From positions 620,001 to 684,000 of the forward strand of contig NZ_CP051151.1 in NCBI RefSeq assembly GCF_013745115.1: DNA of 64,000 nucleotides, in the 5' to 3' direction. Each line of letters starts with the position of its first letter. Position 1 is the first letter of the stretch. This document shows positions 5,609-31,488 of the stretch, one piece after another. Source of the DNA: Hujiaoplasma nucleasis. GTDB taxonomy: Bacteria > Bacillota_I > Bacilli_A > Izemoplasmatales > Hujiaoplasmataceae. The notes beneath the pieces were generated by a model, which saw only the letters and a program-made list of their open reading frames with translations, was not told the origin of the DNA and did no database searches. Position numbers and translations under genes: made by a program.

Positions 5609-5624
5609 TATACAATATCCTTTC

Positions 5625-5688
5625 AAAAAAATTAGTTTCCCTAGATTCATCATTAATTACTTAATAACAAATCTAGAAAAACTAATTT
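5625..5688 (-). terminator. 19-bp hairpin with T tract between membrane peptide and RT
   Basis: The arms at 5670-5688 and 5629-5647 pair over 19 bases with two G-T wobbles and a 22-base loop. On the minus strand a run of seven T follows at once. It starts directly after the stop codon of the 66-residue ORF and ends about 20 bases before the RT start. It has the form of an intrinsic terminator or of a stable RNA stem. Confidence 0.75.
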
Positions 5689-13942: not shown

Positions 13943-14277
13943 TTTTTCTTCCATTCCCAAGAAGAAACTTTTTTTGTATTTTTAGAAGAAGCTCTTTTTT
14001 TGCCATGTCCTAGTTTTAAAACATCAAAAGGATTCACTTTAATTTCTGGGAATAACAAATTAATTTCTGGTAGAAGTCTTAGAACTCTTAAAATAGACAA
14101 CAAGTTATCCAAAGATATGTTTTCTCCATTTTCTAATCCGCTAATGGTTCTTTGTGATACCCCAGACTCTATCGCTAACTCTTTTTGTGTAATATCTAAA
14201 GCGATTCTTCTAGCTTTCAGTCTTCTTCCAATTTCTTTAATAATTATATCGTTAGTTTCAAATCCTTGAATTTTCAT
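13939..14277 (-). CDS. hipB: HipB-type XRE antitoxin
   Basis: 112 residues from the ATG at 14277, chosen for GGGTGAT just upstream; a longer frame begins at 14322 without a site. A classic XRE helix-turn-helix at about residues 12-68 (LDITQKELAIESGVSQRTIS) and a short basic tail. It binds its own promoter and holds HipA inactive. First gene of the hipBA operon. Confidence 0.85.
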   Translation of the reverse strand: MKIQGFETNDIIIKEIGRRLKARRIALDITQKELAIESGVSQRTISGLENGENISLDNLLSILRVLRLLPEINLLFPEIKVNPFDVLKLGHGKKRASSKNTKKVSSWEWKKK

Positions 14278-14882
14278 TTTATCACCCATATATATTATAC
14301 AATATAAAGTTTTATAATGCAATATGTTGCATTAAATTATTGGTTTTTTATTATAAAAAGCAATATATTACTTTTTAAACTATATAACATTAGGGATGAT
14401 TCCATACTAAGTCAAACAATCTTTATCCATTAATATCAGCGGTTTTAATGATGTATGAATCATAGTAATCATACCTAATATATATACCTCCCAATAATAT
14501 AGTGAATTATCTTTCAGTGAACTATCTTTCATTAATGCATTATAATTATATATCAATAGGAACTAAAGACCATCTTTTTAATCTTAATGAAATCATTTCA
14601 TTGCTACATACATGGGTTTCATAAGAACAGACAGTTGTAAATGATGGGGCTGTGCGTCGCGGACCTTCATCAAAGACTGTCTGTTTCAATGAACCCCTTC
14701 ACTTTGAACATACTTTTTTCCTTCTAACCCTGCACTTTAAACTGTTTTCATCAAGATTTTTTTGTCAGAGTTACAAGTCTGTTTAATATCTCCATTAAGA
14801 GCATAATCGATGTTTTCTTATGGAGATTTTAAATCCCCTCAAATCAGTTGATTAATATAGATTTATGATTTAAGTCCTCTAA
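14278..14882. other. Non-coding region with a large GC-richer stem-loop
   Basis: 605 bases. The main feature is a 60-base stem-loop at 14626-14685: AACAGACAGT pairs with ACTGTCTGTT, nested TGATG/CATCA lies inside, and the centre is unusually GC-rich (CTGTGCGTCGCGG). The left part is the hipB upstream region with poly-A/T tracts. A TTTCAGTGAACTATCTTTCA-like repeat is at 14513-14533. Confidence 0.6.
14626..14685. repeat. 60-base nested inverted repeat
   Basis: Perfect 10-bp outer arms (14626-14635 and 14676-14685), with nested TGATG/CATCA inside. The arms resemble the ACAGACAGT motif of the hairpin family at 7457 and 11123, so it may be a back-to-back pair of family members. Confidence 0.6.
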
Positions 14883-16401: not shown

Positions 16402-17967
16402 TTATCTAGCGACCTCTTTGACTTTAAACATTGATTTGATTTCATCTTTCCAAGGTAATAAATGGTTCATCTTTTCTAACTGTTCGATCGTTAATTGACT
16501 TTGATATAGATCTAATTTATATAGTTCATCCATTAAATATGCTAGATACTTATAAGTATCTAAGCCATTCGTTTTAGCTGTTGTAATTATACTCATTAAT
16601 ATCGTTGAAGCCCTAGCCCCTTTTTCAGTGTTAGAGAATAAGAAGTTCTTTCTATTTATAACGAAGGGTTTAACACCTCTTTCAGCTAAATTATTATCTA
16701 TTGGAATATGACCGCTTTTCAAATAAGTCTTTAGTTCACGTTCTAGTTTTAAAGAGTAAGCGACTGCTTTACCTGTCACAGAGTTGGGTGAATAATGTGT
16801 CTGTTTAAGATGGTTAAAATACCCATCTAATAATTTATGATAGCTTTTTTGGTTTCTTCTATGATGTATGTCTTTTGGAGATAATTTATTATCCCTGAAT
16901 CCTCTCTCAGCTTTAAAGATTTTATCCGCTAAATCGATAATTTCTAAAAGCTTAGGATCTTTGTTTGCTTTATAAATATCGACAAACTTTCTCTTGGCAT
17001 GAACGAAACACTTTTGAAGTGTGACATTGGGTATGTGATTATACCCAGCATAATCATCAACGACTAAATAACCCTTATAGTCTTTTAGGAAGTCTCTTGG
17101 CCAAGCACCTGACCTAGAATACCGGTATTCATAAATATATATAGGCGCATCATATATAGAAGATGCATACATCCAAACATATGATTTATCGCGCTTGGCT
17201 TTATGACCGACATTGATCACTTTCAAGGTTGTCTCATCTGCGTGAATCACTGATGTTTTATTATGAATAAGTAAATGCTTTAAATACACATAAAAAGGCT
17301 TAATTAAAGCTGCCGCTTTCATTAAGTAATTTGATAAGTTTACTCTTGATATTGGAAACCCTGCATTTAAAAAAGCATTTTCTTGTCTGTAAAGCGGTGT
17401 GCCCATAAAAAACTTTTCATTGGCTATATATGATACAAGTGAAGGCGTGGCGATCGAATGACTAAAAGGAAAGTCTCTTATTTGCGTATTGACTTTACTA
17501 CATGTATCACACTTTCTTGTTTTAAAGATATGTTTAATGATTCTTATATCCATTTTGACTTCAGCTTTATAAGTGATGTCTTCGCTAATAAGTTTTGTTT
17601 CATGATCACACTTATGATCTTCATGAATAACTGTTTCACTGACCATTGATTCGAAATCAATACCTTCATGATTTTTAGCTTTTGCTTTTCTAGGTTTTTT
17701 AGTCTCTAAAGCTCTTGTTTCTTCATTAAGCGAAGTCGATGCATTAGCTTCTATTTCATTAAAGTTAAAGAGGTTTATCTCCTCTTTATCAATGGATTCG
17801 CTTTTAGGTTTAAAGGTTCTTGCGTTTTTCATTGCGATGACGAGTTTAAGTTGTTGGTTTTCATTCTCTAACTTTTCATATTCAGAACTTAATTCCTTAA
17901 TTTCTTTTTGTAAAGATGTTACTAAACTTAATAGTTCATCATATGATTTTTCTTTGAATTTATCCAT
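16402..17967 (-). CDS. tnpC: IS66 transposase TnpC
   Basis: 521 residues, full length. An N-terminal coiled coil (about 1-45), a Zn-binding segment with CDTC and CDH, and the DDE catalytic domain (IHADETTLK; YLVVDDYAGY; NNLAERGVKPFVINRKNFLF) are all present, with the short C-terminal IS66 domain at the end. It catalyses cut-and-paste movement of the element. The gene appears intact even though tnpA is not. Confidence 0.92.
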   Translation of the reverse strand: MDKFKEKSYDELLSLVTSLQKEIKELSSEYEKLENENQQLKLVIAMKNARTFKPKSESIDKEEINLFNFNEIEANASTSLNEETRALETKKPRKAKAKNHEGIDFESMVSETVIHEDHKCDHETKLISEDITYKAEVKMDIRIIKHIFKTRKCDTCSKVNTQIRDFPFSHSIATPSLVSYIANEKFFMGTPLYRQENAFLNAGFPISRVNLSNYLMKAAALIKPFYVYLKHLLIHNKTSVIHADETTLKVINVGHKAKRDKSYVWMYASSIYDAPIYIYEYRYSRSGAWPRDFLKDYKGYLVVDDYAGYNHIPNVTLQKCFVHAKRKFVDIYKANKDPKLLEIIDLADKIFKAERGFRDNKLSPKDIHHRRNQKSYHKLLDGYFNHLKQTHYSPNSVTGKAVAYSLKLERELKTYLKSGHIPIDNNLAERGVKPFVINRKNFLFSNTEKGARASTILMSIITTAKTNGLDTYKYLAYLMDELYKLDLYQSQLTIEQLEKMNHLLPWKDEIKSMFKVKEVAR

Positions 17968-18058
17968 TTAATAACACCTCAATTCATACATATATTATAC
18001 CATTTTAAGGAGAAAAGTATATAGTAAATATGCAAAAAAGAGCCTTATTCAGCCCTTT

Positions 18059-18406
18059 TCAATAATCATAATATCTTGTTTTATGTGCTCTTTTTTGGAT
18101 AGGGGATAAACCGTCTAACAACCATTTTAATTGTCTTTCTTCAACCAAGATTACTTTATCATCTTTTGGCCATATAAACTTTTCACCATGGGTTCTCTTA
18201 TAGTAAACCCATACACCAGTTTGATCAACTTCTAATATCTTTATTTTGGTTCTATCCCTAGAACAAAATATAAAGATACGATTAATTCTTAGATCTAGTT
18301 TTTGATAATTCACAGAAATAATAGATGTTAAACCATCAATTTGCTTTCTCATATCTGTATAACCAGTGACTAAGTAGATATGCTCAACCTTTGTTAAATC
18401 AATCAT
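18059..18406 (-). CDS. tnpB: IS66 accessory protein TnpB
   Basis: 115 residues. Matches the IS66 Orf2 family: YLVTGYTDMRKQIDGLTSII and IFIFCSRDRTKIKILEVDQTG. Needed for IS66 transposition, with unknown biochemical role. The start overlaps the tnpA stop. Confidence 0.9.
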   Translation of the reverse strand: MIDLTKVEHIYLVTGYTDMRKQIDGLTSIISVNYQKLDLRINRIFIFCSRDRTKIKILEVDQTGVWVYYKRTHGEKFIWPKDDKVILVEERQLKWLLDGLSPIQKRAHKTRYYDY

Positions 18407-18652
18407 CGATTAATACCTTGACAACTTTTATCAATACCTCATCATTACATTTGATATGAATACCTTTAAGATAAAAATCATTTACTGATGATTTTTTAAT
18501 CATCGTTGTCACATCTAACAGTTTATTCTTAAGCTTCCTTCTTTTAATCTGATATATATAGGACTTACTTATATCATAGCTTGATTTATTTCCTTAACAG
18601 ATTGACCATCTTTTAAGGCTTGGTAAACGATTTCTAGTTTGCTTAAACTCAT
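18403..18652 (-). pseudogene. tnpA: IS66 tnpA, frameshifted
   Basis: Starts MSLSKLEIVYQALKDG and stops after 27 residues at 18569. The neighbouring frame continues (SKSYIYQIKRRKLKNKLL...) to a stop at 18403-18405, which overlaps tnpB. The length of 250 bases is not a multiple of three. The HTH-like pattern fits IS66 OrfA. A single indel near 18570-18590 broke it, so the element is probably no longer autonomous. Confidence 0.7.
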
Positions 18653-18789
18653 AAAAAAAACACCCCTTATCATTTAATATTTACTATATCAAATATTATA
18701 GGTGTTTTTATCTATATTGGAAGCACGTATTATTTTAAACGCTCACAATAAAAATCAAAAATATCAATAGAATCTAAACATTAAGCCAT

Positions 18790-18825
18790 AGAAAAAGCAC
18801 TGAAAATACATTTCAGTGCTTAATA
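18790..18825 (-). terminator. Terminator-like hairpin between IS66 and ISL3
   Basis: AAGCACTGAAA pairs with TTTCAGTGCTT (18795-18821). On the minus strand it is followed by TTTTTC. Confidence 0.6.
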
Positions 18826-18848
18826 TTTTAGGTTCTATAATTTTCTTA

Positions 18849-20287
18849 GGGGTGTTTAAAAAAGATGTTTATAAAATAAAAGTGCATGAATAGGTACAAT
18901 CCTTTATAATGTAGTTACCAACAAACACCGAAAGGAGACCTATTCATGCATAAACATTATATCAATAAATTATTAGATTTAAAAGATGAAGATATTATTA
19001 TTAAAGGTATTTCTATAGAAAGAGGGACTAAGTACATTAAATTAGAACTTCCTATTAGAGAATATGTCTGTCCTCATTGTGGGTGTTTAACTAAGCGAGT
19101 TCATGATTATAGGGTAAGAAAGATCAAACATCAATATGAACTTGGGTATAAAGTCATACTTCTTTACAAGAGACGTAGATACTTATGTAAAGACTGTCAC
19201 AAAAGATTTCCTGAAGATAATCAGTTTGTCAGAAAATATCATAAGATAAGTAATTATACTAAACAATTAATCATTAAAGAATATGGATTTAAACAATCAA
19301 TTAGTGATGTTGGTAGACATTTAAATATATCCTTTCATACAGTGATGAGACACATTAAAACTCATGTTAGACCTAGAAGACAAACCTTACCTGAAGTCTT
19401 AAGTATAGATGAGTTTAAGAACTTATCACATGGTTATGGTAAATATGCCTTCTTAATGACTGATCCAGTCAATAAAAAGTTGATTGATGTTTCCCCTAAT
19501 AGAAGAAAACATAATTTAGAGTATTATTTGTCCCATATAGATAAAGAAGAGCGAGATAGGGTTCAATACATCATATCAGACTTATGGGACCCTTATAGAC
19601 AATTGGTTCATAAATACTTCCCTAAAGCTAAATTAATCGCTGATAAATATCATTTCATTAGACAGATGTATTGGGCTGTTCAAGATGTGAGATTAAGAGT
19701 GATGAAGAAATATAAGAAAGGTTCTTATGAATATCATTGTCTGAAGAAATATTGGAAACATATACTGGCTTATACTTACAATCTTTCAACCAAGCATTTT
19801 AAAGATTATAAGCTTGGTTATCACATTACAGCTAGAGAGATTATTGATAAAGTAAGACACTTTGATCAAGACATGAAAAAAGCCATCGATTTAAAAGATT
19901 CATTCTATGAAATGATGCATTCAACATCTAACCAAGAAGCTAGAGATGTAATAAATCAATTTATTGATAACTTATATCAAACTAAATTACCTGAATTTAA
20001 AATAGTGGCTAGAACTTATAAAAACTGGAAAGAAGAGATTATTAACTCATTTATTACCTATGATAAGAAACAATTAACTAATGGGTTTATTGAGGGTTTA
20101 AACAACAAAATAAAAGTGATTAAACGTATAGCCTTTGGTTATAGAAACTTTGATCACTTTAGATTAAGAATATTTGCATTAACTCATAATGATTGTCCTA
20201 TTACTTCACTTTAAAACATAAAGAAAAAAGACAATATTTCAACCGAAATATCATCTTTAATTTCTTTCCTTAAACATCAAAGACCCC
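18849..20287 (+). mobile_element. ISL3-family insertion sequence
   Basis: One transposase gene flanked by imperfect inverted ends starting GGGGTGTTT (18849) and, on the other strand, GGGGTCTTTG (ending at 20287). No exact 8-base target duplication was seen. The ends are a best estimate. Confidence 0.65.
18946..20214 (+). CDS. ISL3-family transposase
   Basis: 422 residues, full length, AAAGGAGA ribosome binding site. An N-terminal zinc finger (CPHCGCLTKRVHDY ... CKDCHKRF), a helix-turn-helix (ISDVGRHLNISFHTVMRHI), and a DDE domain with LSIDEFKN, ISDLWDPYRQ and the C-terminal FIEGLNNKIKVIKRIAFGYRN are all visible. Appears intact. Confidence 0.93.
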   Translation: MHKHYINKLLDLKDEDIIIKGISIERGTKYIKLELPIREYVCPHCGCLTKRVHDYRVRKIKHQYELGYKVILLYKRRRYLCKDCHKRFPEDNQFVRKYHKISNYTKQLIIKEYGFKQSISDVGRHLNISFHTVMRHIKTHVRPRRQTLPEVLSIDEFKNLSHGYGKYAFLMTDPVNKKLIDVSPNRRKHNLEYYLSHIDKEERDRVQYIISDLWDPYRQLVHKYFPKAKLIADKYHFIRQMYWAVQDVRLRVMKKYKKGSYEYHCLKKYWKHILAYTYNLSTKHFKDYKLGYHITAREIIDKVRHFDQDMKKAIDLKDSFYEMMHSTSNQEARDVINQFIDNLYQTKLPEFKIVARTYKNWKEEIINSFITYDKKQLTNGFIEGLNNKIKVIKRIAFGYRNFDHFRLRIFALTHNDCPITSL

Positions 20288-20318: not shown

Positions 20319-21122
20319 CTACTCAACTTTATTAACAAGTATACCGCCAATAATATACATGTCATCATATAGGGTATAATTTATCATAAACGCATTATTA
20401 TCTATAAACATCTCACTAACATAATCAGAGAATATAATTAAGGCGTTATCTGTAATTAAATAGTCACTAGCTTCTAAATTATTACCATCTATTTGATTTA
20501 TTTCTCCATCAAATAATTCAAATTGAAATAAAAGATCGACAGTACCATCTGTATAAACAGATGTTGAACTTATAATATATGGTACTTCCTTGCTATTAAT
20601 TGTGATGGATACACGTGTTATTTGTTGGTTAAAGACTAAGTCAAACTCTACCAAAGACGATGATTGCCCTAAAACATATGAAGATTTAATGGCATAACCA
20701 TTATTCTCATAAAGAACATCATCCACTGGGATTTCATCACCATTCATATCATAGACTAATACATCAGGTGTAATATCTAAATGAAGTATACGGATATCTT
20801 GCGTTGAGTAAATACTATATTGGTAATAACTATCGCGCAACGCAACAAGATTTTCTTCAGTTGTTAGATCATCAGTTGTTGTTAGTTCTGATGTCGTTAC
20901 TTCTTCAGTTGTCGTCGGCATTTCTGTCGTATCTTGACTACTTGTCATACCTTCTGTTGATGTTGGTAAATCAGAAGTCTCTTCAGCAGTTGTTTGTATT
21001 TCTGAAGTTTCTATTTGACTCGTAACTTCTTCCGTTGTTAAATCGGTTGTAACAGTATCATTACATCCAACTAAAACAAATAATAAAGTTATAATCAATG
21101 TTCTATATAGATATTTTCTCAT
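20319..21122 (-). CDS. Secreted lipoprotein with Thr/Ser/Glu-rich linker
   Basis: 267 residues from the ATG at 21122; a TTG 21 bases earlier lacks a site. The signal peptide ends in a lipobox (LLFVLVGC), so the mature protein is attached to the membrane outside. Residues about 20-90 are a low-complexity linker made of TTEE/TTSE-type repeats. The globular remainder (about 95-267) is beta-rich and unrecognised. It lies downstream of the nuclease segment on the same strand and may be co-transcribed. The substrate or partner is unknown. Confidence 0.65.
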   Translation of the reverse strand: MRKYLYRTLIITLLFVLVGCNDTVTTDLTTEEVTSQIETSEIQTTAEETSDLPTSTEGMTSSQDTTEMPTTTEEVTTSELTTTDDLTTEENLVALRDSYYQYSIYSTQDIRILHLDITPDVLVYDMNGDEIPVDDVLYENNGYAIKSSYVLGQSSSLVEFDLVFNQQITRVSITINSKEVPYIISSTSVYTDGTVDLLFQFELFDGEINQIDGNNLEASDYLITDNALIIFSDYVSEMFIDNNAFMINYTLYDDMYIIGGILVNKVE

Positions 21123-21187
21123 TAAAATCACTCTTTCTTTCAATAATCATAAATAACTGGCAAGAAAACTTGCCAGTTATACTTGTA

Positions 21188-22102
21188 TTAATTATTATAA
21201 TACGAATGGTCCCCAAAAATCAACTCTACAAATTCTTCATAGTCAATAAATGGATTTCTATTACCTTGATATGAATAAATCACATCATTACGATTTCTCT
21301 CAAAATCATCCACAGGATCTAGTTCATGCCATGATAACAATACTTCTAGTAAAGCCATTTCATAGGTTGAAGGTGCTACATCAACAAGATCAAGATTATC
21401 ATACATAATAACCATGTAGAATAATATTCTCGCGATATCACCCTTTACTTCATCCGGTGGTTCATAAGTTGATGCTGTTGTAAGATTATCAAAGTATTTA
21501 TTACTTCTTGAACTGTTGGTGCCTGGATCAGCAGGTTTTAAGTTGTGTAAATCTGCTGACATCACACTATCATAGCCTAACAAGGATTGAGGCCACACGT
21601 GTTCTCTATTCCAGGTGCAACTTCCAGAAGGACAATACCATTCACCGTCTACAGATTGTTGTGTATATACTAAAATCACATTATTAGGATTGTTAGGATC
21701 CTGATCTGTTTCATCTAATATATAACGAGCATCATCATAAGTAACATAAGTATAATCGCTAATAATTGTGTGTAGGGCTTGTTCTAGAGCTGTACCTTGT
21801 AGCCCTTCAGCATCATCATAGTAAGTGATTAAATCTTGTGTTAAAAAGTTATTATCTGTAACAGAATAAGTTTGAGTAAGTGTTGCTGTGTTGCCTGATG
21901 AATCAGTTGCACTATAGGTGATATCATAATCACCTATAGTGTTTGTATCAATTGTTCCAGAAGTAGTGCAATCAACAGGACCATCTACATCATCCAATGC
22001 AGTACATCCATAATCTCCTACACTATCCCCTATAGAATATGAATAAACATTATTATTCAAAGTAATCTCTGGAGCTGTTGTATCTTCTACAGGGGTTATG
22101 AC
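21188..22102 (-). CDS. EndA-type nuclease domain with Ig-like module, probably joined to the upstream protein by a -1 frame change
   Basis: The frame has no ATG or ribosome binding site at its 5' end and no signal peptide, so it is best read as the C-terminal part of the secreted protein encoded at 22096-25608. From 22102 it begins VITPVEDTTAPEIT, then an Ig-like module (GTIDTNTIGDYDITYSATDS). An endonuclease I domain follows with the catalytic NREHVWPQS and HNLKPADP motifs. EndA-type enzymes degrade DNA or RNA without sequence preference, usually outside the cell. The junction sequence A-AAC-CCG (22102-22108) fits a -1 slippery heptamer one codon before the stop. Confidence 0.75.
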   Translation of the reverse strand, partial: VITPVEDTTAPEITLNNNVYSYSIGDSVGDYGCTALDDVDGPVDCTTSGTIDTNTIGDYDITYSATDSSGNTATLTQTYSVTDNNFLTQDLITYYDDAEGLQGTALEQALHTIISDYTYVTYDDARYILDETDQDPNNPNNVILVYTQQSVDGEWYCPSGSCTWNREHVWPQSLLGYDSVMSADLHNLKPADPGTNSSRSNKYFDNLTTASTYEPPDEVKGDIARILFYMVIMYDNLDLVDVAPSTYEMALLEVLLSWHELDPVDDFERNRNDVIYSYQGNRNPFIDYEEFVELIFGDHSYYNN

Positions 22103-25100
22103 GGGTTTGAGTAAGTAATAGTTATTGTATAAATATTTATCGCTCCATCATTTGACTCAATAAGAAAATATCCATAATTTAACCCTGAAAAATCATATGT
22201 TAGTGTTTTACCACCATCTGTTAAAGATGGGTTAATTAGCTGTGTAGTACCTTGTGAAGTTGTTGAACCATATAAACTAAATATATCAACATCCTTTTGA
22301 GAAATAACAATTTGAGTAATTACTCCAAGAGAATCTTTGTTATAAAAATCACCTGAACCGTTTCTACCTTGCATAGTGGCACTGTCAAAAGTACCAAAAT
22401 TAATATAACCAAAAGTAAATCCAGATACTATGAAAGTTTTCTCACTGCTGCTATAACTTGAAGTTAATGCTGCATCTTTATCAATAACGAGCGATGAACT
22501 GGCAACTTGCCATTGAGCATATAAAGTTATCCCTTCAACATCCATTGTAAATGAAGCTCCATCTTCATATGCTGTACCACTACCATTAGCCAAAGTATTC
22601 CATCCTGTGAAAACAAGATCACCATTCGTAAAAGTATTTGTTGTTAATGTGGCTGAACTGTCAAAAGTTATAGACTGATTTGACATTGATCCGGTTCCTG
22701 TTCCGCCATCTCTATTGGCATCAAATACAACATCATAATCATTAGCTATCCAAGTTGCAGTAATAGTGACTTTGTTGTCTGGCATATTTGCTGGTACTGA
22801 TGAATCCCAACCATCAAACGTATAACCTGTCCTTGTTGGATCTGCTGGTGCTGTTACACCACTTAAATCGCTATTATAATCGTAATTTGCAGTTTGCAAA
22901 ACAGTTCCTTGTCCATCAACAAACTCAACTGCATAATTACTTACTATCCACTTAGCATAGATAGTCGTATCAACTTTTATCGGAGAAGTAAAATTGTACT
23001 CTGTACTAAATCCGGCATCAGAATACCAGCCATCAAAAGTTGAGCCTGTTTTTGTTGGATCTACTGGCTGAATCGCTTGATTTCCATCAATAATGACTTG
23101 AGATTCTACTCCACTACCACCATTGACATCAAAATCGACTGTAAATGTTGTTTCATCACTAATATGACTGTCATCTAGGATTACAGCTTTTGCATTATCA
23201 CCGAATGTATCATATATGAAAATGTAGATTATTTTACTTGGATTAAACTCGCTATTAGTTTCAAAAATTACACCTAATGTGCTTGATAAGTTTGCGTTTG
23301 TTGAGTCAAATCGTAAAGCAATATAATAACCATCATAGTTTGGATTAACTAAACCATCTAGATTATGCGCAATTCTAGTATATGTGCCTGTAGTATACAT
23401 ATATGGTTGCTCGATTTTTATTAACTCACCCATATAATCAGACAAATTAAAGTTCTCAAAATCTATATCAACAGCATTAGTAGTACTATAATTTATTGAG
23501 TTTCCAGTACTAATAACTTCAAAATATGATAAAAGTGTTATCATTGCTACTTCTTCTGACTCATCGTAAGTTCCCGTAATAAGAACTTGATCTCCAACCG
23601 AGACACTATTAACATCATCATCTACTGCAATCATCGTTGTCGAAGAAGTATCTTGTATAATGTACCCTACATCTGTCAAACTCGCTACTATACCTGTTAG
23701 ACTCACTTCTATAAATGAATCTGCATATACATCTGAAACAGAGTTTGTCACTGAGGTTAATTCTATACTATCTGATATATTATGATTATTGGTATATAGT
23801 GCATATATAGTTGCGTCACCGATTGAATTTGCGGTAACTAATCCATCTGCGTCTACTGATAATACATCAGGGTTAGAACTATACCATTCAATACCTTCTG
23901 GGCCATCAAATCCATTAGAGTATTGCACATTAAGTTGAAGAGTATCCTCGAAGTTTATCTCAGTTATATGATTAGGATCTATCGATATTGAAGCTGGTTC
24001 ATCAGAACTCTGATGAATTGTATTAACTGTTACACCAGTATTACTAACCCACTTAATATCATCAATAATCACTTGCTTAGAAGTAATGTTTCTTATCTCA
24101 ATAGTAAAATCTCCGCTTATTTCTAAATCATCAACAACGAATATATGCTCATTATAATCATCAAATGGTGTTGAAGTGCCTTTGCTTTCTCCATTAATAA
24201 ACAGTTCTACTTGGCGATCCCCACCACCTGTGAATCCTTTATAAAGTTTGACTTCAAAGTATGATATGCCTCCTGAAATCATGCTAGATATAATGTTAGA
24301 ATTATCACTAGATCGTCGAAGCATCAATGCATTTCCGTCTATACCACTATTATTATCGTCTCCATTTTCATCTCTAGATTGTACATAAGACCATGTAATA
24401 CCATTATTTCCAATAAAAGAGTTATCTAAATAAGATCCAGTAGCATTTGAGTTGGTAAAATCTTCAGTATAGGTTTCATCTTGACTTACATCATATTGAT
24501 AATAAGAATACGTAATGGTTTCAGTTGTACCATCAGTCGTAATCATATAAGCTCTATAAGCTGATTGTTCTGAGTCTGGGAATGTCATCATAAATTCATT
24601 GGTTACTGGATAGTATTTATTTGATCTAACTTTTTCTACACCTGGTGTATTAAAGGTGATACCACCTTCTAAATCAGCTGCTAAAATACCATACTCGATT
24701 AAATCATGTCCATTCGGTACATGGAATTGACCAACCAAAGAATTATATCCGACTCTAATACCATAAGGTGCTGATATGGTTATAAATGCATCATCTGGAT
24801 TAAAGTTATCTGTTTCATTATTTACAGCTTCGACTGTTGTATCTTCAATCATTGTAAATGAATACGTTGGTTGTAAACTTGCGATGATACCATCTTTTAA
24901 CCAATATTGGAAAGTTTCAGTATTCGATGCTTCCACAGTCGCAACACCATTGTACTCATAAACACCATCAACTGGTTCCCCTGCTGCTAAAGCACCATTA
25001 ATAACAGTTAATGTTGATGTTGGTTGGTTTGAATCAACATCATATTTAATATAGACAACTGTATCTTCTGTAAAGGTATCAACAGCAAAATCAATTAAGT

Positions 25101-25608
25101 CAGTGCCATTAGCTGTCCACCCTTGGGCTTCTAAGCCTGGTTTAGGATGTGCTAAATGATCTGGCGTAGCGCCTACACCAAAGTCAACCAAGTCAGTTGC
25201 TTGATCTGTATAGTAAGAACCAATATAATCTTGATTGGCATCCATAAAGATAACAACGGTTTCCCCAGTCGTTTTAAAGAATGCATCAACATCTGTATCT
25301 TGAGTAACCCTGATACCTGTATCTGTGAACTTAGTTGGATTTAATTCTACTTTGCCATTCATTTGAAAACCAACAAATGTTAGCCCACTTGGTGTAAGTG
25401 ATCCCACATCAAATTGAACAACATCGCCATAGTTAGCATTTAAGCTAGTATCTAAGGCATCAGATGGTTGCTGTCCTGGAACATTTAAAGACCAGTTAAA
25501 TTGAAACTGCTCATTGGTTGGTCCTTGGCTATCTGCTTGAACATGTGCATAGGATAGTCCTATAAACATACCTAAGACTAAAAATAGTGATAAAAATAGT
25601 TTTTTCAT
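22096..25608 (-). CDS. Large secreted multidomain protein (Ig, OB-like and InlB-type repeats)
   Basis: 1170 residues. The Sec signal peptide is KKLFLSLFLVLGMFIGLSYA. In the N-terminal third are beta-rich modules and a jelly-roll-like segment (about 385-525). A Big_2-like Ig domain lies at about 540-615, an OB-like pair at about 620-800, then three InlB B / Flg_new repeats (FDGWYSD; YTFDGWDSS; FTGWNTLA) at about 825-1040. A final beta module ends in TITYSNPS. Its start overlaps the stop of the 47-residue precursor gene (TAATG) and uses GGGAGG inside that gene as ribosome binding site, so the two are co-translated. The coding sense continues into the EndA-type domain in the -1 frame. Likely role: extracellular nucleic acid binding and degradation. 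Confidence 0.7.
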   Translation of the reverse strand: MKKLFLSLFLVLGMFIGLSYAHVQADSQGPTNEQFQFNWSLNVPGQQPSDALDTSLNANYGDVVQFDVGSLTPSGLTFVGFQMNGKVELNPTKFTDTGIRVTQDTDVDAFFKTTGETVVIFMDANQDYIGSYYTDQATDLVDFGVGATPDHLAHPKPGLEAQGWTANGTDLIDFAVDTFTEDTVVYIKYDVDSNQPTSTLTVINGALAAGEPVDGVYEYNGVATVEASNTETFQYWLKDGIIASLQPTYSFTMIEDTTVEAVNNETDNFNPDDAFITISAPYGIRVGYNSLVGQFHVPNGHDLIEYGILAADLEGGITFNTPGVEKVRSNKYYPVTNEFMMTFPDSEQSAYRAYMITTDGTTETITYSYYQYDVSQDETYTEDFTNSNATGSYLDNSFIGNNGITWSYVQSRDENGDDNNSGIDGNALMLRRSSDNSNIISSMISGGISYFEVKLYKGFTGGGDRQVELFINGESKGTSTPFDDYNEHIFVVDDLEISGDFTIEIRNITSKQVIIDDIKWVSNTGVTVNTIHQSSDEPASISIDPNHITEINFEDTLQLNVQYSNGFDGPEGIEWYSSNPDVLSVDADGLVTANSIGDATIYALYTNNHNISDSIELTSVTNSVSDVYADSFIEVSLTGIVASLTDVGYIIQDTSSTTMIAVDDDVNSVSVGDQVLITGTYDESEEVAMITLLSYFEVISTGNSINYSTTNAVDIDFENFNLSDYMGELIKIEQPYMYTTGTYTRIAHNLDGLVNPNYDGYYIALRFDSTNANLSSTLGVIFETNSEFNPSKIIYIFIYDTFGDNAKAVILDDSHISDETTFTVDFDVNGGSGVESQVIIDGNQAIQPVDPTKTGSTFDGWYSDAGFSTEYNFTSPIKVDTTIYAKWIVSNYAVEFVDGQGTVLQTANYDYNSDLSGVTAPADPTRTGYTFDGWDSSVPANMPDNKVTITATWIANDYDVVFDANRDGGTGTGSMSNQSITFDSSATLTTNTFTNGDLVFTGWNTLANGSGTAYEDGASFTMDVEGITLYAQWQVASSSLVIDKDAALTSSYSSSEKTFIVSGFTFGYINFGTFDSATMQGRNGSGDFYNKDSLGVITQIVISQKDVDIFSLYGSTTSQGTTQLINPSLTDGGKTLTYDFSGLNYGYFLIESNDGAINIYTITITYSNPS

Positions 25609-25751
25609 TAGAAACCTCCCATGCCCATATCTTCGTTTCCACAGGTCATACCAGACCCGGAATTACTAGACGCTGCAATTGAATCTTCTAATTCAAATTC
25701 AATCACATCCATAGTTGGTGTCTCATAGATCTCTTTCTTTTCCGTGTTCAT
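25608..25751 (-). CDS. Candidate RiPP precursor peptide (47 residues)
   Basis: Strong ribosome binding site (AGGAGG) 6-7 bases before the ATG. The N-terminal half is acidic and leader-like (ETPTMDVIEFELEDSI), followed by AASSNSGSG and a core-like end with a single Cys and a run rich in Gly and Met (MTCGNEDMGMGGF). It is preceded, on the same strand, by radical SAM/SPASM, kinase-like, PqqD-like, signal peptidase and nucleotidyltransferase genes, the typical company of a modified peptide. The stop overlaps the start of the secreted protein gene. The modification and final product are unknown. Confidence 0.7.
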   Translation of the reverse strand: MNTEKKEIYETPTMDVIEFELEDSIAASSNSGSGMTCGNEDMGMGGF

Positions 25752-25767
25752 AAAAAAATCCTCCTGT

Positions 25768-26922
25768 TTATTTTATTCCTATATCTATAAAGAGTTTTTC
25801 TACGTATTGGATGTCATCTTTGTTGGCACTCATGCGTTTTAGTTTACGTCTTGAACTCTTCCTAAATAACAAACTGAATATCCGTTGGATGTAAGCCACA
25901 GGGAGTAAAAAGGGATATTTTCTTAAATATCGATACATACCTTTCATTGCCTTAAATGGCAAAAAGGCTTTTGAAAATAAAAACTTAATTTTTGTCCAGA
26001 TAATGAATTCATTTTTACCGTGTTTGCTGGCCATGCCGCCAATAAATAAGTTATGGTCTTCGCCGATGCCATGGGTACCAGAATGAGTCACGTATGTAAT
26101 AAATTCATTTATTTGGTTTTGATTTATTTTACCACAAAGTTCTTTTTTTAACAATCCAACATTTGTAAAATATCTTTTTACCAAACATTGGATAAAATTT
26201 ACAAAGTCTTTTTTAGGAAACTTATCATAGATTTCTTCATATACGTCTTTATGAAATGATGTTGTGTTTAAGAGATAATAAAGGTCTATAAAGGTTCTTA
26301 ATCCAACCCCTGAATGATAGAGATGTTTAATCATATGGTATAGTTGATAGTAAAAACGATAGCTATCAGACAAATGATATCTATGTGCATCTTTTGTAGA
26401 TGCATAAAGCCATGGGTTCAAAAACAAGTCTCCATAAGCTTTAGAAAACTCAGAATCTAATTTTGGATGGATTTCAACATTAATCTTATCCTTTATAAAA
26501 CAGTCATGATTAGATGAATTATGCCAGTTCTTAAAGTGATGTTCTTCCAATACCTTATGAACCTTGTCCATAGACTCTGGTCTAACTAAAATATCAATAT
26601 CACCCATCACACGCATAAAACTATGGGGATAAAGGGTTTTTAAATATGATCCTTTTAAGAAGATATGATCAATCTGATGTTGATTAAAGAGACCATTGAT
26701 TTCTTTAATCAATTGTACTTGGATTTCATCTCTTTGAATGTAACGAAAATAATCTTCTTTAAAGCCTTTATAAAGATTTTCTTGGTCTTTAATTAGGGGA
26801 TAAATTGTTCCTGATAGTTGATTGGCCCTTAAGATTTTATAGTCTGCTTGGGTTAGAGGTTCACTGATTTTCTCTTGTTTGATGATATGATTTAGTAAAA
26901 CCATGGCTTTATTGACGTCCAT
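25768..26922 (-). CDS. Nucleotidyltransferase of the NTP_transf_5 type
   Basis: 384 residues. The nucleotidyltransferase core is FLKGSYLKTLYP ... RVMGDIDILVRP, with the third acidic residue probably in INVEIHPKLD, at about residues 90-165. The rest is helical. This family (PF14907) is often found in peptide-modification clusters such as those of lasso peptides, next to HPr-kinase-like and PqqD-like proteins, where it is thought to tailor the peptide. It overlaps the signal peptidase gene by 14 bases. The role in this locus is inferred from context. Confidence 0.7.
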   Translation of the reverse strand: MDVNKAMVLLNHIIKQEKISEPLTQADYKILRANQLSGTIYPLIKDQENLYKGFKEDYFRYIQRDEIQVQLIKEINGLFNQHQIDHIFLKGSYLKTLYPHSFMRVMGDIDILVRPESMDKVHKVLEEHHFKNWHNSSNHDCFIKDKINVEIHPKLDSEFSKAYGDLFLNPWLYASTKDAHRYHLSDSYRFYYQLYHMIKHLYHSGVGLRTFIDLYYLLNTTSFHKDVYEEIYDKFPKKDFVNFIQCLVKRYFTNVGLLKKELCGKINQNQINEFITYVTHSGTHGIGEDHNLFIGGMASKHGKNEFIIWTKIKFLFSKAFLPFKAMKGMYRYLRKYPFLLPVAYIQRIFSLLFRKSSRRKLKRMSANKDDIQYVEKLFIDIGIK

Positions 26923-27364
26923 GAATTACCCCCCTGTAGATATGTCTTAAAAACATCTTGATTGCTTTAAATTTCAAGGTGATAAATACCTTAAACCGGT
27001 AGACCCAGTTTTTTGTAATAATCATTTTATCTTTATGCTGAAACTGATAAACATAAGCTAGGATTTGATCTTCTCCAACAATTTCATACGTATAGAGATG
27101 GTCACCTCTAAAAAAATATTGATCACCCTTAATCTTGATGAGTCGATGGAGGAAATACTGGTCTTTTATATTAAACAAACAGATATCATTAACTTGATAT
27201 CTGTTTTTTTTCTTGCAAAAAACTTCTGTTTCTTGATCATGTAAGAAAGGCATCATTGACCTACCTTTCACAATGAAAGAAACAGATGCTTTATCACTTA
27301 AAGTATCTGTAATGGTTTGAAAAAATACCTTATTTTCAATCACTTTCTTAGTTGAAGAGTCCAT
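26909..27364 (-). CDS. S26 signal-peptidase-like protease (Sec11/SipW type)
   Basis: 151 residues from the ATG at 27364, which overlaps the end of the PqqD-like gene; longer starts lie inside that gene. The catalytic Ser36 is in GRSMMPFL. FLHRLIKIKGDQYFFRGDH gives the His of the Ser-His type active site and the GD motif. The usual N-terminal membrane helix is missing or weak, so the enzyme may be cytoplasmic or peripheral. In a RiPP operon the likely job is removing the leader of the precursor. Confidence 0.72.
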   Translation of the reverse strand: MDSSTKKVIENKVFFQTITDTLSDKASVSFIVKGRSMMPFLHDQETEVFCKKKNRYQVNDICLFNIKDQYFLHRLIKIKGDQYFFRGDHLYTYEIVGEDQILAYVYQFQHKDKMIITKNWVYRFKVFITLKFKAIKMFLRHIYRGVIHGRQ

Positions 27365-27614
27365 GTTTTTGACATTTCTTAATAAAGGTATGAATATCCT
27401 TTTTAGCACGTGCTTCATCGACATCATATGTATCGAGGACAATTTTAAGTAAATCCCCTTCTTCTAAATCATAATTTTGTAAGGTCTTAAATAAGAATTG
27501 ACCTGTTTTGTTTAAAGAAATAATGCCATTAAAACGGACAGCTTCGTCTTTTACTGGCACAACAACAATGTCTTCGCCAATACTTTTAATCACATAATCA
27601 GATTTAATTTTCAT
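27348..27614 (-). CDS. PqqD-like peptide-binding protein (RRE)
   Basis: 88 residues, the size of stand-alone RiPP recognition elements. Pattern: three beta strands (VIKSIGEDIVVVPVKDEAVRF) followed by ISLNKTGQFLFKTL and helices (DEARAKKDIHTFIKKC). PqqD-type domains bind the leader of a precursor and present it to the modifying enzyme. It overlaps the kinase-like gene by 4 bases and the peptidase gene by 17. Confidence 0.78.
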   Translation of the reverse strand: MKIKSDYVIKSIGEDIVVVPVKDEAVRFNGIISLNKTGQFLFKTLQNYDLEEGDLLKIVLDTYDVDEARAKKDIHTFIKKCQKHGLFN

Positions 27615-28468
27615 AGGTTTTCCTCCATAAATTTATATAAATAATAAGCACTTTGTATATGGTGAATACATGCAAAAGCATATATATCTAAATCATGCAT
27701 CATGTGGTCGACAATGGTCATCATCTGGTCTACCAAGACTTCATCGCCAGGCCGGTGAATATTTCTAAAGACTTCTTGAATTTTTTTGTTCTTAGAGAGT
27801 TCTTTTATCTTTAAGTCTTTGGCTTTTTCGATAAAAAACATGAAATCGAGTGGTCGCTCCATATTGGCATTTATCACATGCTTGCCTGACCAAGGTGATC
27901 CGACGACATAGGCTTGGTGGTCTTTAAAATAAACCAATGGTTTATCTTCGTTGATAATGATTGATGCTGGATATGCTTGCATAAAATAATTGGTTTGGGT
28001 TGACTTACCTGACTTAGATGGTCCAGATAATAAAAAGGTATGGTTTTTATAATGGATACAGGATGCGTGAACTGGTAAGTAACCACTAACAAGGGCCATT
28101 TCAAAAAAAGCCATACCAGATAAAACATATTCATACTCAGCCAATCTTTGGCCAAGTTTTTTATTAAGATAGATCTTAATTGTTTGATAATCATTGGTAT
28201 GATAAATCATATGTTTAATGCCTTTACCCTGATTAAAGTGTGTCACGATATAGGTTTCTTCTTCTGAAACCATTTTATAACGGTTTTTATAGGTAAAGGT
28301 AATGTCTTTATTTGGTGGTGTGATTTCTTCTAATGTTTCAATGGATAGGGTGTGTACTTTATTTGCCGTCTCATCACTTCGGTAAGGGTCTAATTTATCA
28401 GAGAAATATGCATCATATGAATAAGTCAAATCAATGATCATCTGCCCAATTTTTATCCGTTTAACCAT
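27611..28468 (-). CDS. HPr-kinase-like protein
   Basis: 285 residues. Walker A is GPSKSGKST (149-157), followed by INEDKPLVYF, like the HprK NDD motif, and GSPWSGKH. No PTS or HPr gene is nearby. HprK-like proteins in peptide clusters (for example of the lasso peptide paeninodin) phosphorylate a Ser in the precursor. Several Ser in the precursor here (AASSNSGSG) are possible targets. It overlaps the radical SAM gene by 8 bases. Confidence 0.75.
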   Translation of the reverse strand: MVKRIKIGQMIIDLTYSYDAYFSDKLDPYRSDETANKVHTLSIETLEEITPPNKDITFTYKNRYKMVSEEETYIVTHFNQGKGIKHMIYHTNDYQTIKIYLNKKLGQRLAEYEYVLSGMAFFEMALVSGYLPVHASCIHYKNHTFLLSGPSKSGKSTQTNYFMQAYPASIIINEDKPLVYFKDHQAYVVGSPWSGKHVINANMERPLDFMFFIEKAKDLKIKELSKNKKIQEVFRNIHRPGDEVLVDQMMTIVDHMMHDLDIYAFACIHHIQSAYYLYKFMEENL

Positions 28469-29423
28469 GATTTCTCTCCAAGGCGATATCTTTTAAATAA
28501 GCAGCGCATTTAAAGACATTACCTTCTAAGTAGCGTCTTGCTAGACATGTCATACAACCGTCTCGATGTTCACAGTTTGTACAAGGGGACGCCTCAAGCA
28601 TGGTTTCCCATTCTTTTTGAAGCGTCTTAAAGGTTGCCATTAAATCATCTTCAACTTTTCTTGATGGTATGGGCATCATTGGACACGCTTGCATATAACC
28701 CTTATGGTTAATAAAATAACCATTTTTAAAGGCACCACAGAGTCGTTTATGTTTAGGTTGACTTTTTATTGGAAAGGCTGTTTTAAGTCTTAACTCAAAA
28801 TCAAGTAAGTCTTTGGGCTTTAATCTATCTTGGCCTTTAACCTTAGACACATATAAGAAATATCCCAGATGACACCCCTTTGATTTCGCATAATCAATGA
28901 TATGGTCTAATCTCTGATATATATATGGTAATGGAATGGTTCTTAATACCAATGGGATATGATTGGTTTTTAATGCATCTATGGTTTGGTCAACCGCATT
29001 AAACGATTGACTTTTAGTAAATTCTTTATATGATGTCTCATCATAACCATATAAGGTTATAGCGACCATTTCAGGCGGTCGCTTTTTTAAGGTATGCAAT
29101 ATGCTTTCTTTTAATAAAGATCCATTGGTATAAAGGGTTATCTTGACCCCTAGGTCATATAAGTATTCATATATATCAATAAAATCTGGATGCGTAAAAA
29201 TCTCACCACCTGTCAATAAGGCGTATAACATCCCATTTTTTTGTGCCATATCAAAAATCTGGAACCAATCATCTTTCTTTAAGACAGGGTCAGTATTTTT
29301 TGCATAACACATCTCACAGTTAAAATTACAATGACTGGTGATTTCAAATTCACCAGTGATTGGTATTTTATGGTCATATGCATAATCTAATAATTTATTC
29401 TTCAGTTCATTATATGTTGGCAT
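28461..29423 (-). CDS. Radical SAM / SPASM peptide-modifying enzyme
   Basis: 320 residues. The radical SAM cluster is Cys32, Cys36, Cys39 (SHCNFNCEMC), with GGEIFTHPDF as the SAM-binding GGE motif. A SPASM-type C-terminus has many Cys: RLCGAF, QACPMM, CTNCEHRDGC, TCLARR and FKCAAY, enough for an auxiliary 4Fe-4S cluster. Enzymes of this class form thioether or C-C bonds in peptides. Together with the PqqD-like protein and the Cys-containing precursor it defines the locus as RiPP-like. The chemistry cannot be read from sequence. Confidence 0.88.
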   Translation of the reverse strand: MPTYNELKNKLLDYAYDHKIPITGEFEITSHCNFNCEMCYAKNTDPVLKKDDWFQIFDMAQKNGMLYALLTGGEIFTHPDFIDIYEYLYDLGVKITLYTNGSLLKESILHTLKKRPPEMVAITLYGYDETSYKEFTKSQSFNAVDQTIDALKTNHIPLVLRTIPLPYIYQRLDHIIDYAKSKGCHLGYFLYVSKVKGQDRLKPKDLLDFELRLKTAFPIKSQPKHKRLCGAFKNGYFINHKGYMQACPMMPIPSRKVEDDLMATFKTLQKEWETMLEASPCTNCEHRDGCMTCLARRYLEGNVFKCAAYLKDIALERNHG

Positions 29424-29436
29424 GTATCTTCCTTAT

Positions 29437-29958
29437 CTATTCTTCTGGTACATCCAAGATTAATCCAATAACACCTGTTTTAGACCCATCTGGAAAAACA
29501 GCTTGGACAGTGATTGTATCTGTATCTATGGTTAATAAATCAAACTCTGTTTGATTTACCTTAACAAACGCGTAGTTGTATGAAATGAGATAGTGACTTG
29601 CTTGAGGGACCGCGTCCCAAAACAAGGTATTGGCTTCTTCATTTAAAGTAAAAAGATAGTCTTGATCATAGTCTATCTCTACGGTGGTTTGTCCAGCCAT
29701 AGAATCTTCAAAGCCTTGGCCGCGCGCAACAGCTGAAACTGAATAGCTACCTTCTTCAATGAGTTCAATCATTGGAACATCACGTTCAAACACCTGACCA
29801 TTGACCGTGATTTCATAGGTCTCTGCAAATTCAACGGCTTGCCAGGTCAATTGATTGTCTTCAAAAATAAACTGATCTGGTTGTTCAAGACTTGTGGCTG
29901 TTTGCGGCAATAAGCCCAAGGTTAATACCATTAATAGTCCAATCATTTTCTTCATCAT
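29437..29958 (-). CDS. Secreted protein with two fibronectin III-like modules
   Basis: 173 residues with signal peptide KKMIGLLMVLTLGLLPQTATS. Two modules of about 75 residues share the pattern NQLTWQAVEFAETYEITVNG / NTLFWDAVPQASHYLISYN, as in Fn3 domains. First gene after the promoter of the peptide cluster, 13 bases from the radical SAM gene. It may be an extracellular partner of the modified peptide or a surface binding protein. No catalytic residues seen. Confidence 0.6.
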   Translation of the reverse strand: MMKKMIGLLMVLTLGLLPQTATSLEQPDQFIFEDNQLTWQAVEFAETYEITVNGQVFERDVPMIELIEEGSYSVSAVARGQGFEDSMAGQTTVEIDYDQDYLFTLNEEANTLFWDAVPQASHYLISYNYAFVKVNQTEFDLLTIDTDTITVQAVFPDGSKTGVIGLILDVPEE

Positions 29959-29976
29959 CAACCTCCGTTATTGACT

Positions 29977-30216: not shown

Positions 30217-31488
30217 TAAGCTGTGTTCAAGATAAGTGTTGATATGGTTTATAAATATCAACCGGGAACAGTTTTTGAGAAATATCTTTATTTCTAAAGA
30301 TTGTTTCCGTCGATATGACATAATTAAGCATATATTTTTCTTGTTAATTAAACGCTAACTTATAGTTGAGACGTTTCATGAATCGAAACCACATCAGATA
30401 TCCTTCGAGATGTTTTGTCGAAACATCTTTGAACCTTTTAAACCAAGATTTTAGTTCACTATGATATTGATTCATATGGCCTAGATTATAATCACCTAAT
30501 CGATGTTTACCTGAAGGTATTTGATACAATTCACATTCTAAACCATTAGAGACTTCTTTATACGCTGATTTACTATCTGTGATTATTGTGCTTTGTTTTG
30601 CAATTTTTGAATCTAAAGCTTGATAGATATCTTTTCCTAGTGGATTTCCTTGACCAATAATCTTAGTTAATATTTGATTCGTCTCATCAATACCAATATG
30701 CACACAAACCTGATCATTGCTTATACCTCGCTTAACACTTGGTGTTCCCGCTTCTTAGGTGATCTTGGCATATCTTTATTCTTCCATGGACCTTTTAAGT
30801 TAAGCAAAAAATACGTTTCATCTAATTGAATTTCACCCTTTAACTGAAACTCCGCCTCATACTCTTTCATTGCTTCCATAATCTTATGACGCCAGTTAAA
30901 TGCAGTTGTTTTTGATATACCAACCTCTATAGCAATCTTACTCAATGATAAGCCATAAAGCATACATCTTACATAATCAGACCATTGCTTATATGTTTTC
31001 TTTGTATATTTTACAATTGATTGATTCGATATGGATACTGTTTTCCTGTTTCCTTATCTAAATATCTTTGGTTTCCATTCTTTGTCTTGCCATATTTTAC
31101 CAAATTAGGTGATAAAGGCCGTTCACGAAAGATAATTTTTAAAAGTGCATCAGCGGCTATGTTGATCGTGTCTTGATTCGTTGATAAAGCCTCTAATAAA
31201 TCATTATAATCATCGGCACATAAAGCATTAATCAGTAACATTATATCTTGGGTAATTGTTGATTCAATCATGTTTGGTATTCTCCTAATAAAAAATGTCC
31301 TTAAGCAACCAGCTTGAAGGTTAAGATTCGTCGCCAAACAGAAACTCGGTTACCAAGCTGGTTGATTAAAGACACTTTAATCAGGAATTATTATCCGCAT
31401 TTCTGTTTGGCACTACTTTTTTACCAAATAATTTGATTTTTAACAATTATTAATATTTATTATCAACACTTATCTTGAACACAGCTTA
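30217..31488 (-). mobile_element. IS1595-type insertion sequence, degraded
   Basis: Perfect 28-bp inverted repeats at 30217-30244 and 31461-31488, starting TAAGCTGTGTTCAAG. The transposase is split over three frames. No matching target duplication was found. The right end lies inside a P-loop kinase gene, whose downstream part is missing on the left side. Confidence 0.82.
30344..31271 (-). pseudogene. IS1595-type transposase, two frameshifts
   Basis: Three segments in three frames: 31011-31271 (ATG at 31271, AGGAGA site; N-terminal part ending KYGKTKNGNQRYLD), about 30721-31000 (helix-turn-helix SLSKIAIEVGISKTTAFNWR and first catalytic Asp in IQLDETYF) and 30344-30703 (IITDSKSAYKE; GKHRLGDYNLGHMNQYHSEL). 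The order and motifs match IS1595-family transposases. Breaks are near 31011 and 30715, so the element cannot make an intact transposase. Confidence 0.8.

Follow-up and report, generated by a model that had tools for sequence, protein, structure and literature searches.

What does a compact run of peptide-modifying genes produce in a wall-less bacterium that lives on nucleic acids, and with what does the product work? The question is raised by a 64,000-nucleotide stretch (hereafter the window) of the complete genome (1,808,583 bases) of Hujiaoplasma nucleasis zrk29, a cultured member of the Izemoplasmatales that has no cell wall and degrades DNA and RNA (PMC10470597). A first-pass annotation of this window had described seven overlapping or nearly touching minus-strand genes at positions 25608-29961 as an undescribed operon for a ribosomally synthesized and post-translationally modified peptide (RiPP). 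We consider it likely that the product of this operon is a linear phosphopeptide, of the linear polyphosphorylated peptide (LPP) type, which would carry an extra modification installed by a radical S-adenosylmethionine (SAM) enzyme and would work with a secreted surface protein.

All seven open reading frames (ORFs) were recovered in the arrangement described. The genes do lie within the proposed span, but the span itself is too short, as the operon runs on to a secreted protein of 1170 residues and to an endonuclease I frame. The gene order on the minus strand is radical SAM/SPASM enzyme, HprK-like kinase, PqqD-like RiPP recognition element (RRE), S26 peptidase, NTP_transf_5 protein and a precursor of 47 codons, followed by the large secreted protein:

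28461..29423, minus strand: radical SAM/SPASM enzyme, 320 residues, with CxxxCxxC at Cys 32/36/39 and SPASM Cys 229, 247, 281, 284, 290, 293 and 306
27611..28468, minus strand: HprK-like kinase (LppK-like), with His134, P-loop 151-157, Asp175 and Lys176 invariant in the alignment
27348..27614, minus strand: PqqD-like RRE (LppB-like), with Asn35, Asp73 and Phe77 invariant or nearly so
26909..27364, minus strand: S26 SipW-type peptidase (LppS-like), 151 residues, with Ser36, His73 and Asp88
25768..26922, minus strand: NTP_transf_5 protein (LppN-like), with a GDIDILV motif seen in the alignment
25608..25751, minus strand: precursor peptide, 47 residues, covered by two alignments
25668..25727, minus strand: leader motif Tyr9-x-x-Pro12...Ile25-Ala26-x-Ser28 of the precursor
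25611..25667, minus strand: variable end of the precursor, SNSGSGMTCGNEDMGMGGF, which reads GDFGSxTxCGEEIF/Y in relatives
22096..25608, minus strand: secreted partner protein, 1170 residues, whose start overlaps the precursor stop (TAATG)
24523..25533, minus strand: N-terminal region of about 340 residues common to partner proteins (alignment of 37; structural model with a predicted local distance difference test score, pLDDT, of 87)

The closest published system is that of the LPPs, reported by Popov et al. (Nat Commun, May 2026; PMC13381572). LPP genes encode a SipW-like peptidase (LppS), an RRE (LppB), an HprK-like kinase (LppK), an NTP-transferase (LppN) and an exporter (LppD), and the precursors follow the consensus YxxPxVLxHQxIxFETxxS. 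LppK adds several phosphates to core Ser3, accepting only serine and never threonine; LppS together with LppB removes the leader at FET|xxS, the phosphate being on that serine; LppN displayed no activity, and the biological role of LPPs is unknown according to the authors (PMC13381572). The window operon shares with this system the HprK-like kinase, the discrete RRE, a SipW-like S26 leader peptidase with Ser-His-Asp and the NTP-transferase, along with the lack of a cyclase and of a B2 protease. Residues N35, D73 and F77 of its RRE correspond to N33, D70 and F74, which bind the leader in LppB. The precursor has the YxxP motif and a serine shortly past the leader but departs from the full LPP consensus, and several relatives have an MsbA-like ABC exporter gene next to the cassette. 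Unlike the LPP loci, the window operon adds a radical SAM/SPASM enzyme, its core is shorter and ends in E-x-x-aromatic, the spacing from Tyr to Ser is 19 instead of 18, and the constant neighbour is a secreted surface protein instead of capsule genes. With nearly all testable features of the pathway present, the operon appears from its genes to encode an LPP-type pathway. The core of kinase, RRE, S26 peptidase and NTP-transferase, with its YxxP precursor, was thus already known; the radical SAM enzyme, of which the main text of the LPP paper makes no mention (PMC13381572), and the partner pairing are additional. The earlier label of an undescribed system therefore holds for the radical SAM enzyme as the new element and not for the rest.

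Other known systems fit less well. An HprK homologue, a nucleotidyltransferase and a B1-type RRE also occur in lasso peptide loci of the paeninodin/pseudomycoidin type, which unlike the window locus have a macrolactam cyclase and a B2 protease, where the leader peptidase here is of the S26 type (PMC8498205). No ORF for a lasso cyclase or a B2 protease exists at the locus, as already remarked in the first-pass annotation, and a lasso peptide is ruled out; given the resemblance to the LPP set, this absence is expected and not odd. SynChlorMet cassettes (TIGR04249-04251) likewise combine radical SAM/SPASM enzymes with HprK-like (ScmC) and PqqD-like proteins, and ScmC is the best family match of the kinase (1.8e-6, below cut-off). 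Membership was rejected, as all matches to these models stay far under the curated cut-offs (27.5 bits against 125) and the operon has one radical SAM gene instead of two. Its radical SAM enzyme is neither ScmE nor ScmF, and it adds the S26 and NTP-transferase genes; nevertheless, through weak matches only, these models foreshadow a radical SAM enzyme with HprK-like and PqqD-like neighbours. A possible connection to SynChlorMet-like cassettes is offered by a clostridial locus (L054, 7404-13576), which encodes an ABC transporter and an S26 protein along with an HprK-PqqD fusion, a pair of radical SAM enzymes and a pair of YxxP peptides. Maturases of SkfB-type sactipeptides share the SPASM domain and provide the closest solved radical SAM structure; they differ in their precursor, and the operon has a separate RRE protein as well as a kinase and an NTP-transferase. 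Finally, the locus resembles the secreted nuclease loci of Izemoplasmatales in its large secreted lamin-tail proteins and its nucleases (PMC8289736, PMC8397711); a term search in the main text of these two papers returned no radical SAM or PqqD genes.

Is the short ORF really a precursor? AGGAGG, the strong ribosome binding site noticed in the first pass, precedes it, and its protein sequence is conserved across 29 copies within the order. An alignment of 16 copies shows differences in 62% of comparisons at codon position 3, against 34% at position 1 and 29% at position 2, as in a coding gene. The leader motif is rigid, with the distance from Tyr to Ser fixed at 19 and the serine invariant in 47 of 47 precursors. 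Of the Cys/Gly/Met-rich end described in the first pass, the Met/Gly-rich part is not conserved; its composition is explained by the GGGAGG Shine-Dalgarno sequence of the large secreted gene, which sits within the last precursor codons (window 25600-25640). The core in the window has one Cys, Cys37. Over the whole class, cores with Cys occur in 13 of 15 genomes with the radical SAM enzyme and in 6 of 22 without it (p 5e-4).

Precursor and enzymes also travel together. Among 90 genomes of the order, a sample for which p values ignore kinship, profiles matched the precursor in 24, the NTP-transferase in 22, the radical SAM enzyme in 17 and the N-terminal region of the partner in 23. The precursor co-occurs with the NTP-transferase (Fisher, p 6e-9), with the radical SAM enzyme (3e-9) and with the partner protein (3e-15), and the values remain between 7e-6 and 3e-4 when only the 33 best genomes are retained. 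The same arrangement, rSAM-HprK-PqqD-S26-NTP_transf_5-precursor-large secreted protein, recurs in up to 15 relatives. Components of the pathway are also linked by natural fusions: HprK with PqqD (L190, L192, L195, L202), radical SAM with HprK (L024) and NTP-transferase with S26 (L208). Co-occurrence, gene order and the matching RRE and leader motifs uphold the original description of a RiPP-like operon that comprises a precursor, an RRE, a kinase, an NTP-transferase and a protease.

The large secreted protein is a constant neighbour of the precursor. It follows directly in 43 of 51 cases overall (27 of 29 within the order, 16 of 22 elsewhere), with a gap of -68 to +9 nucleotides in the order, and the pairing also holds at loci without any enzymes. 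Of the two exceptions in the order, one sits at a contig end and the other precedes a protein that has a signal peptide; outside the order, the precursors of L193 and both copies of L207 precede other proteins with signal peptides. In L207, from another family, the related precursors (8343-8471 and 9706-9834; FITPEIEVVDF...DVIATSG) stand directly before two unrelated secreted proteins, and the pairing may be wider. Beyond their N-terminal region the partner proteins vary, with lamin-tail, BspA-type leucine-rich, ice-binding-like, metallo-beta-lactamase, Big_2 and InlB-type repeat segments. Since the precursor and the N-terminal region are constant and the rest varies, our proposal is a joint action of the mature peptide and that region at the cell surface, which is the most likely interpretation judging from gene order and co-occurrence.

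The enzymes match their assignments. The radical SAM protein (Pfam Radical_SAM, 1.5e-17) has SkfB as its closest solved relative in a PDB profile search (E 1.7e-22); the three cysteines reported in the first pass are present, Cys39 being invariant and Cys32 and Cys36 conserved to 90% or more among 15 relatives (with one row incomplete there), and seven further invariant cysteines in the same alignment form the SPASM pattern. Homologues in relatives are 38-67% identical. A plain sequence search of the genome contigs with the window protein returned nothing, a profile search being needed to find the homologues, and a plasmid search gave distant radical SAM proteins only. The HprK-like P-loop protein has nothing in Pfam above cut-off; its AlphaFold model (pLDDT 94) matches HPr kinase/phosphatase best in the PDB (1ko7, E 1.7e-6). 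The leader-binding protein matches Pfam PqqD (4.7e-11), and its PDB profile matches include TbiB1 (5.9e-7), PbaB1 (3.5e-5) and LppB (9x8z, 3.0e-4), the lasso RRE TbiB1 scoring better than LppB. The S26 protein (Pfam Peptidase_S24, 9e-6; NCBIfam signal peptidase I, 2.9e-7) has no segment hydrophobic enough for a clear membrane helix. Its Ser36 and its HR motif (His73-Arg74) are invariant in 12 relatives, as is Gly87-Asp88; Asp88 is assigned by motif, with a spacing to Asp unlike that of D93 in LppS. The NTP_transf_5 assignment stands at a Pfam value of 4.8e-35.

Within the sample examined, the radical SAM enzyme is confined to this order. Loci in other families of the class present a divergent ABC transporter, HprK-PqqD (fused at four loci), S26, NTP-transferase, precursor, large secreted protein, endonuclease I and lipoprotein, and no radical SAM gene of this family was seen in them. 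Three genomes (G045, G065, G066) also have the core system without the enzyme. On the NTP-transferase tree, where few deep forks are well supported, the radical SAM label clusters, with 4 changes against 8.6 in shuffles. In the simplest reading, the radical SAM step was gained, or retained, in Izemoplasmatales and lost later in some of them.

The following pathway may be proposed. The PqqD-like RRE would bind the leader at Tyr9-x-x-Pro12, motif and binding residues both being present. The radical SAM/SPASM enzyme would modify the core to give a thioether or another crosslink, the conserved Cys or its vicinity being the probable site. By analogy with the LPPs, the HprK-like kinase would phosphorylate the invariant Ser28, and the NTP_transf_5 protein might then decorate the phosphate. 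The soluble S26 peptidase, with its Ser-His-Asp residues, would cut off the leader with the help of the RRE, either after residue 24, as the LPP spacing suggests, or after Ser28, following the A-x-S rule of signal peptidases. Cleavage after A-x-S28 would be the weaker of the two models, since all 47 copies keep Ser28 and none has Ala, Gly or Thr there, a better fit to a kinase site. Export may be achieved by an ABC transporter, whose gene adjoins the cassette in relatives and not here. The precursor would be co-translated with its secreted partner, and the mature peptide may serve as a ligand, an anchor or a modification at the cell surface.

Several points weigh against this reading. What the sequences show is the genes with their conservation, co-occurrence and pairing, the RRE and protease residues, and the -1 frame with its overlap; the chemistry of each step, the place of cleavage, the export route, the partnership with the secreted protein and the product of the frameshift discussed below are inferred. 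The spacing from Tyr to Ser is one residue longer than in LPPs, which leaves the cleavage site unsure. Within the order alone, cores with Cys occur in 13 of 15 genomes with the enzyme against 5 of 8 without it (p 0.2), and in two genomes (G053, G082) the radical SAM enzyme stands beside precursors devoid of Cys; a strict dependence of the radical SAM gene on the core Cys is thus unsupported inside the order. About ten copies of the partner region have no precursor, so that the partner can exist without it, and Foldseek searches with this region gave weak matches only (tandem ubiquitin-like beta-grasp repeats, TM-score about 0.2). Lastly, no exporter is encoded at the window locus, and the genome itself holds just generic ABC exporters about 26% identical. 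A cluster exporter is common in the published LPP family and not shown to be required; its absence at the locus leads us to speak of a variant of the LPP system and not of a plain member.

How far does the partner protein extend? The ORF after it encodes an Ig-like domain and an endonuclease I with an intact catalytic region, in the window and at 11 other loci (L021, L040, L190, L192, L195, L196, L197, L199, L200, L202, L203). The elements concerned are:

21188..22147, minus strand: -1 frame encoding Ig-like domain and endonuclease I, already open ahead of the partner stop
22102..22108, minus strand: candidate slippery heptamer A AAC CCG, in frame, just before the partner stop at 22096-22098
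22087..22095, minus strand: 5' arm of a covarying RNA stem, CCCCTGTAG
22027..22035, minus strand: 3' arm of the same stem, CTATAGGGG

Programmed -1 frameshifting probably joins the partner to endonuclease I, to judge from the following features. At all 12 loci the endonuclease frame is -1 relative to the partner, is open from 10-82 nucleotides before the end of the partner stop, and lacks both a signal peptide and a conserved start codon. At least two of four other endonuclease I genes in the genome (L230, L232) start with a hydrophobic, signal-like stretch, and at four loci partner and endonuclease lie within one ORF, which indicates that the fusion is natural. Just past the stop, the 12 loci carry CCCCTACAG or a variant, with the complement CTGTAGGGG some 36-58 nucleotides farther. 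In this CCCCTA/TAGGGG stem, pairs 3-9 are standard in 10-12 of the 12 loci, with compensatory changes at pairs 7, 8 and 9. At positions 5-10, with anchors chosen by us, pairing is seen in 65 of 72 cells; swapping arms among the loci gives a mean of 57.8 (50 of 20000 permutations being as good). RNAalifold returned no pairs for the region because the 5' arm is offset between loci; the arms were consequently paired by these anchors, which biases the pair count. All 12 loci use GGG for the Gly codon of the 3' arm; in window genes GGG makes up 44 of the 373 Gly codons (12%). In-frame heptamers before the stop, about 6-7 nucleotides from the stem, are AAACCCG (window, L021, L202) and TTTAAAA (L192); a classic heptamer is thus found at 4 of 12 loci, with none at the remaining ones and none common to all. 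For L190 and L196 the best predicted stem is another one, and in-frame fusions used as controls are mixed: L220 and L227 are without the GGGG/CCCCTA pair, L226 has it and L228 gave no motif match. In L199 (near 5969) and L200 (near 4889), the gene for the large protein stops at the TAA of GGGGGAG-TAA-CTCCCCC; these letters form a short, perfect hairpin that holds the stop codon in its loop and competes with the long stem. In zrk29, the frameshift would extend the partner into a secreted endonuclease I, which fits growth on extracellular DNA. A limited literature search found no earlier case of a recoded secreted nuclease of this kind.

The alternatives touch different parts of this proposal. 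RiPPs made with SkfB-type radical SAM enzymes are mostly antimicrobial, and the product could be an ordinary secreted antimicrobial or signalling RiPP with a neighbouring surface protein that is merely co-regulated; the ABC exporter adjoining the cassette in several relatives agrees with this, as does the patchy gain and loss of LPP genes, which the LPP authors regard as typical of conflict (PMC13381572). We nonetheless judge it unlikely, since the E-x-x-F/Y/W end of the core is kept over many genera, unlike in arms-race peptides, the same partner family stands beside the precursor even at enzyme-free loci, and no immunity gene was recognised. If the radical SAM enzyme had no part in making the peptide, or had a different substrate, for instance a lipid or sugar of the NTP-transferase step, this would account for the core systems that lack it, in other families and in the three genomes named above, and for its presence beside Cys-less precursors. 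Its gene, in turn, is the first enzyme gene of the operon, overlaps the kinase gene and is fused to it in L024; the clustering of the label on the tree and the core Cys, mostly present where the enzyme is, point the same way and make this improbable.

A translated upstream ORF that regulates the large secreted gene, with the enzymes acting elsewhere, would explain why the short ORF overlaps or abuts the start of that gene at most loci and carries its Shine-Dalgarno sequence in the window. Such an ORF would hardly call for strong amino acid conservation, a YxxP matching an RRE, a fixed spacing, an invariant Ser and co-occurrence with the enzymes, and we hold this explanation to be very improbable. 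As to the endonuclease I frame, frameshifting need not be involved if it is an independent gene that has its own start, or a dead fragment: a minority of the frames have ATG, GTG or TTG near their beginning, the 12 loci share no slippery heptamer, and in-frame loci exist. Against this stand the constant -1 register, the frame always open before the stop, the lack of a conserved start, the intact catalytic region, the absence of a signal peptide in an enzyme type that acts outside the cell, the covarying stem past the stop and the bias to GGG, so that a separate gene or fragment seems rather doubtful.

Two further genes frame the operon:

29437..29961, minus strand: secreted protein of 174 residues, first operon gene, related to the N-terminal half of the lipoprotein beside the same system in relatives
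20319..21143, minus strand: lipoprotein that matches the C-terminal half of the one in relatives

The first matches the lipoproteins of L021, L024 and L029 and has no match in Pfam. Lying at opposite ends of the operon, the two correspond to the N- and C-terminal halves of one lipoprotein in relatives and represent a split gene. Transposase-like ORFs flank the operon (window 30344-30963 and 16402-20214, translations judged by eye), suggesting a mobile or rearranged stretch. Also by eye, pairs resembling AbiEii/AbiEi and HipA/HipB toxin-antitoxin systems lie at window 8684-10217 and 12656-14322, and a reverse-transcriptase-like ORF (window 4667-5653) stands beside two serine recombinases at 1297-4618.

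Taken to its full extent, the proposal is that a doubly modified linear peptide, bearing a radical-SAM modification and a phosphoryl or nucleotidyl/glycosyl group, is the dedicated surface partner of a secreted protein family in wall-less relatives of Bacilli, one partner being made a secreted nuclease by -1 frameshifting at a conserved RNA stem; we put this forward tentatively, as possible. The work adds a radical SAM step to an LPP-type pathway and ties LPP-like chemistry, gene by gene, to one secreted protein family in cultured, DNA-degrading, wall-less bacteria. Were the proposal true, the candidate -1 frameshift would provide a recoded secreted nuclease across several families and LPPs would obtain a first biological role. 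The pairing of precursor and partner is the best lead on that role and, as it occurs in a strain grown in the laboratory, makes the question of LPP function directly testable.

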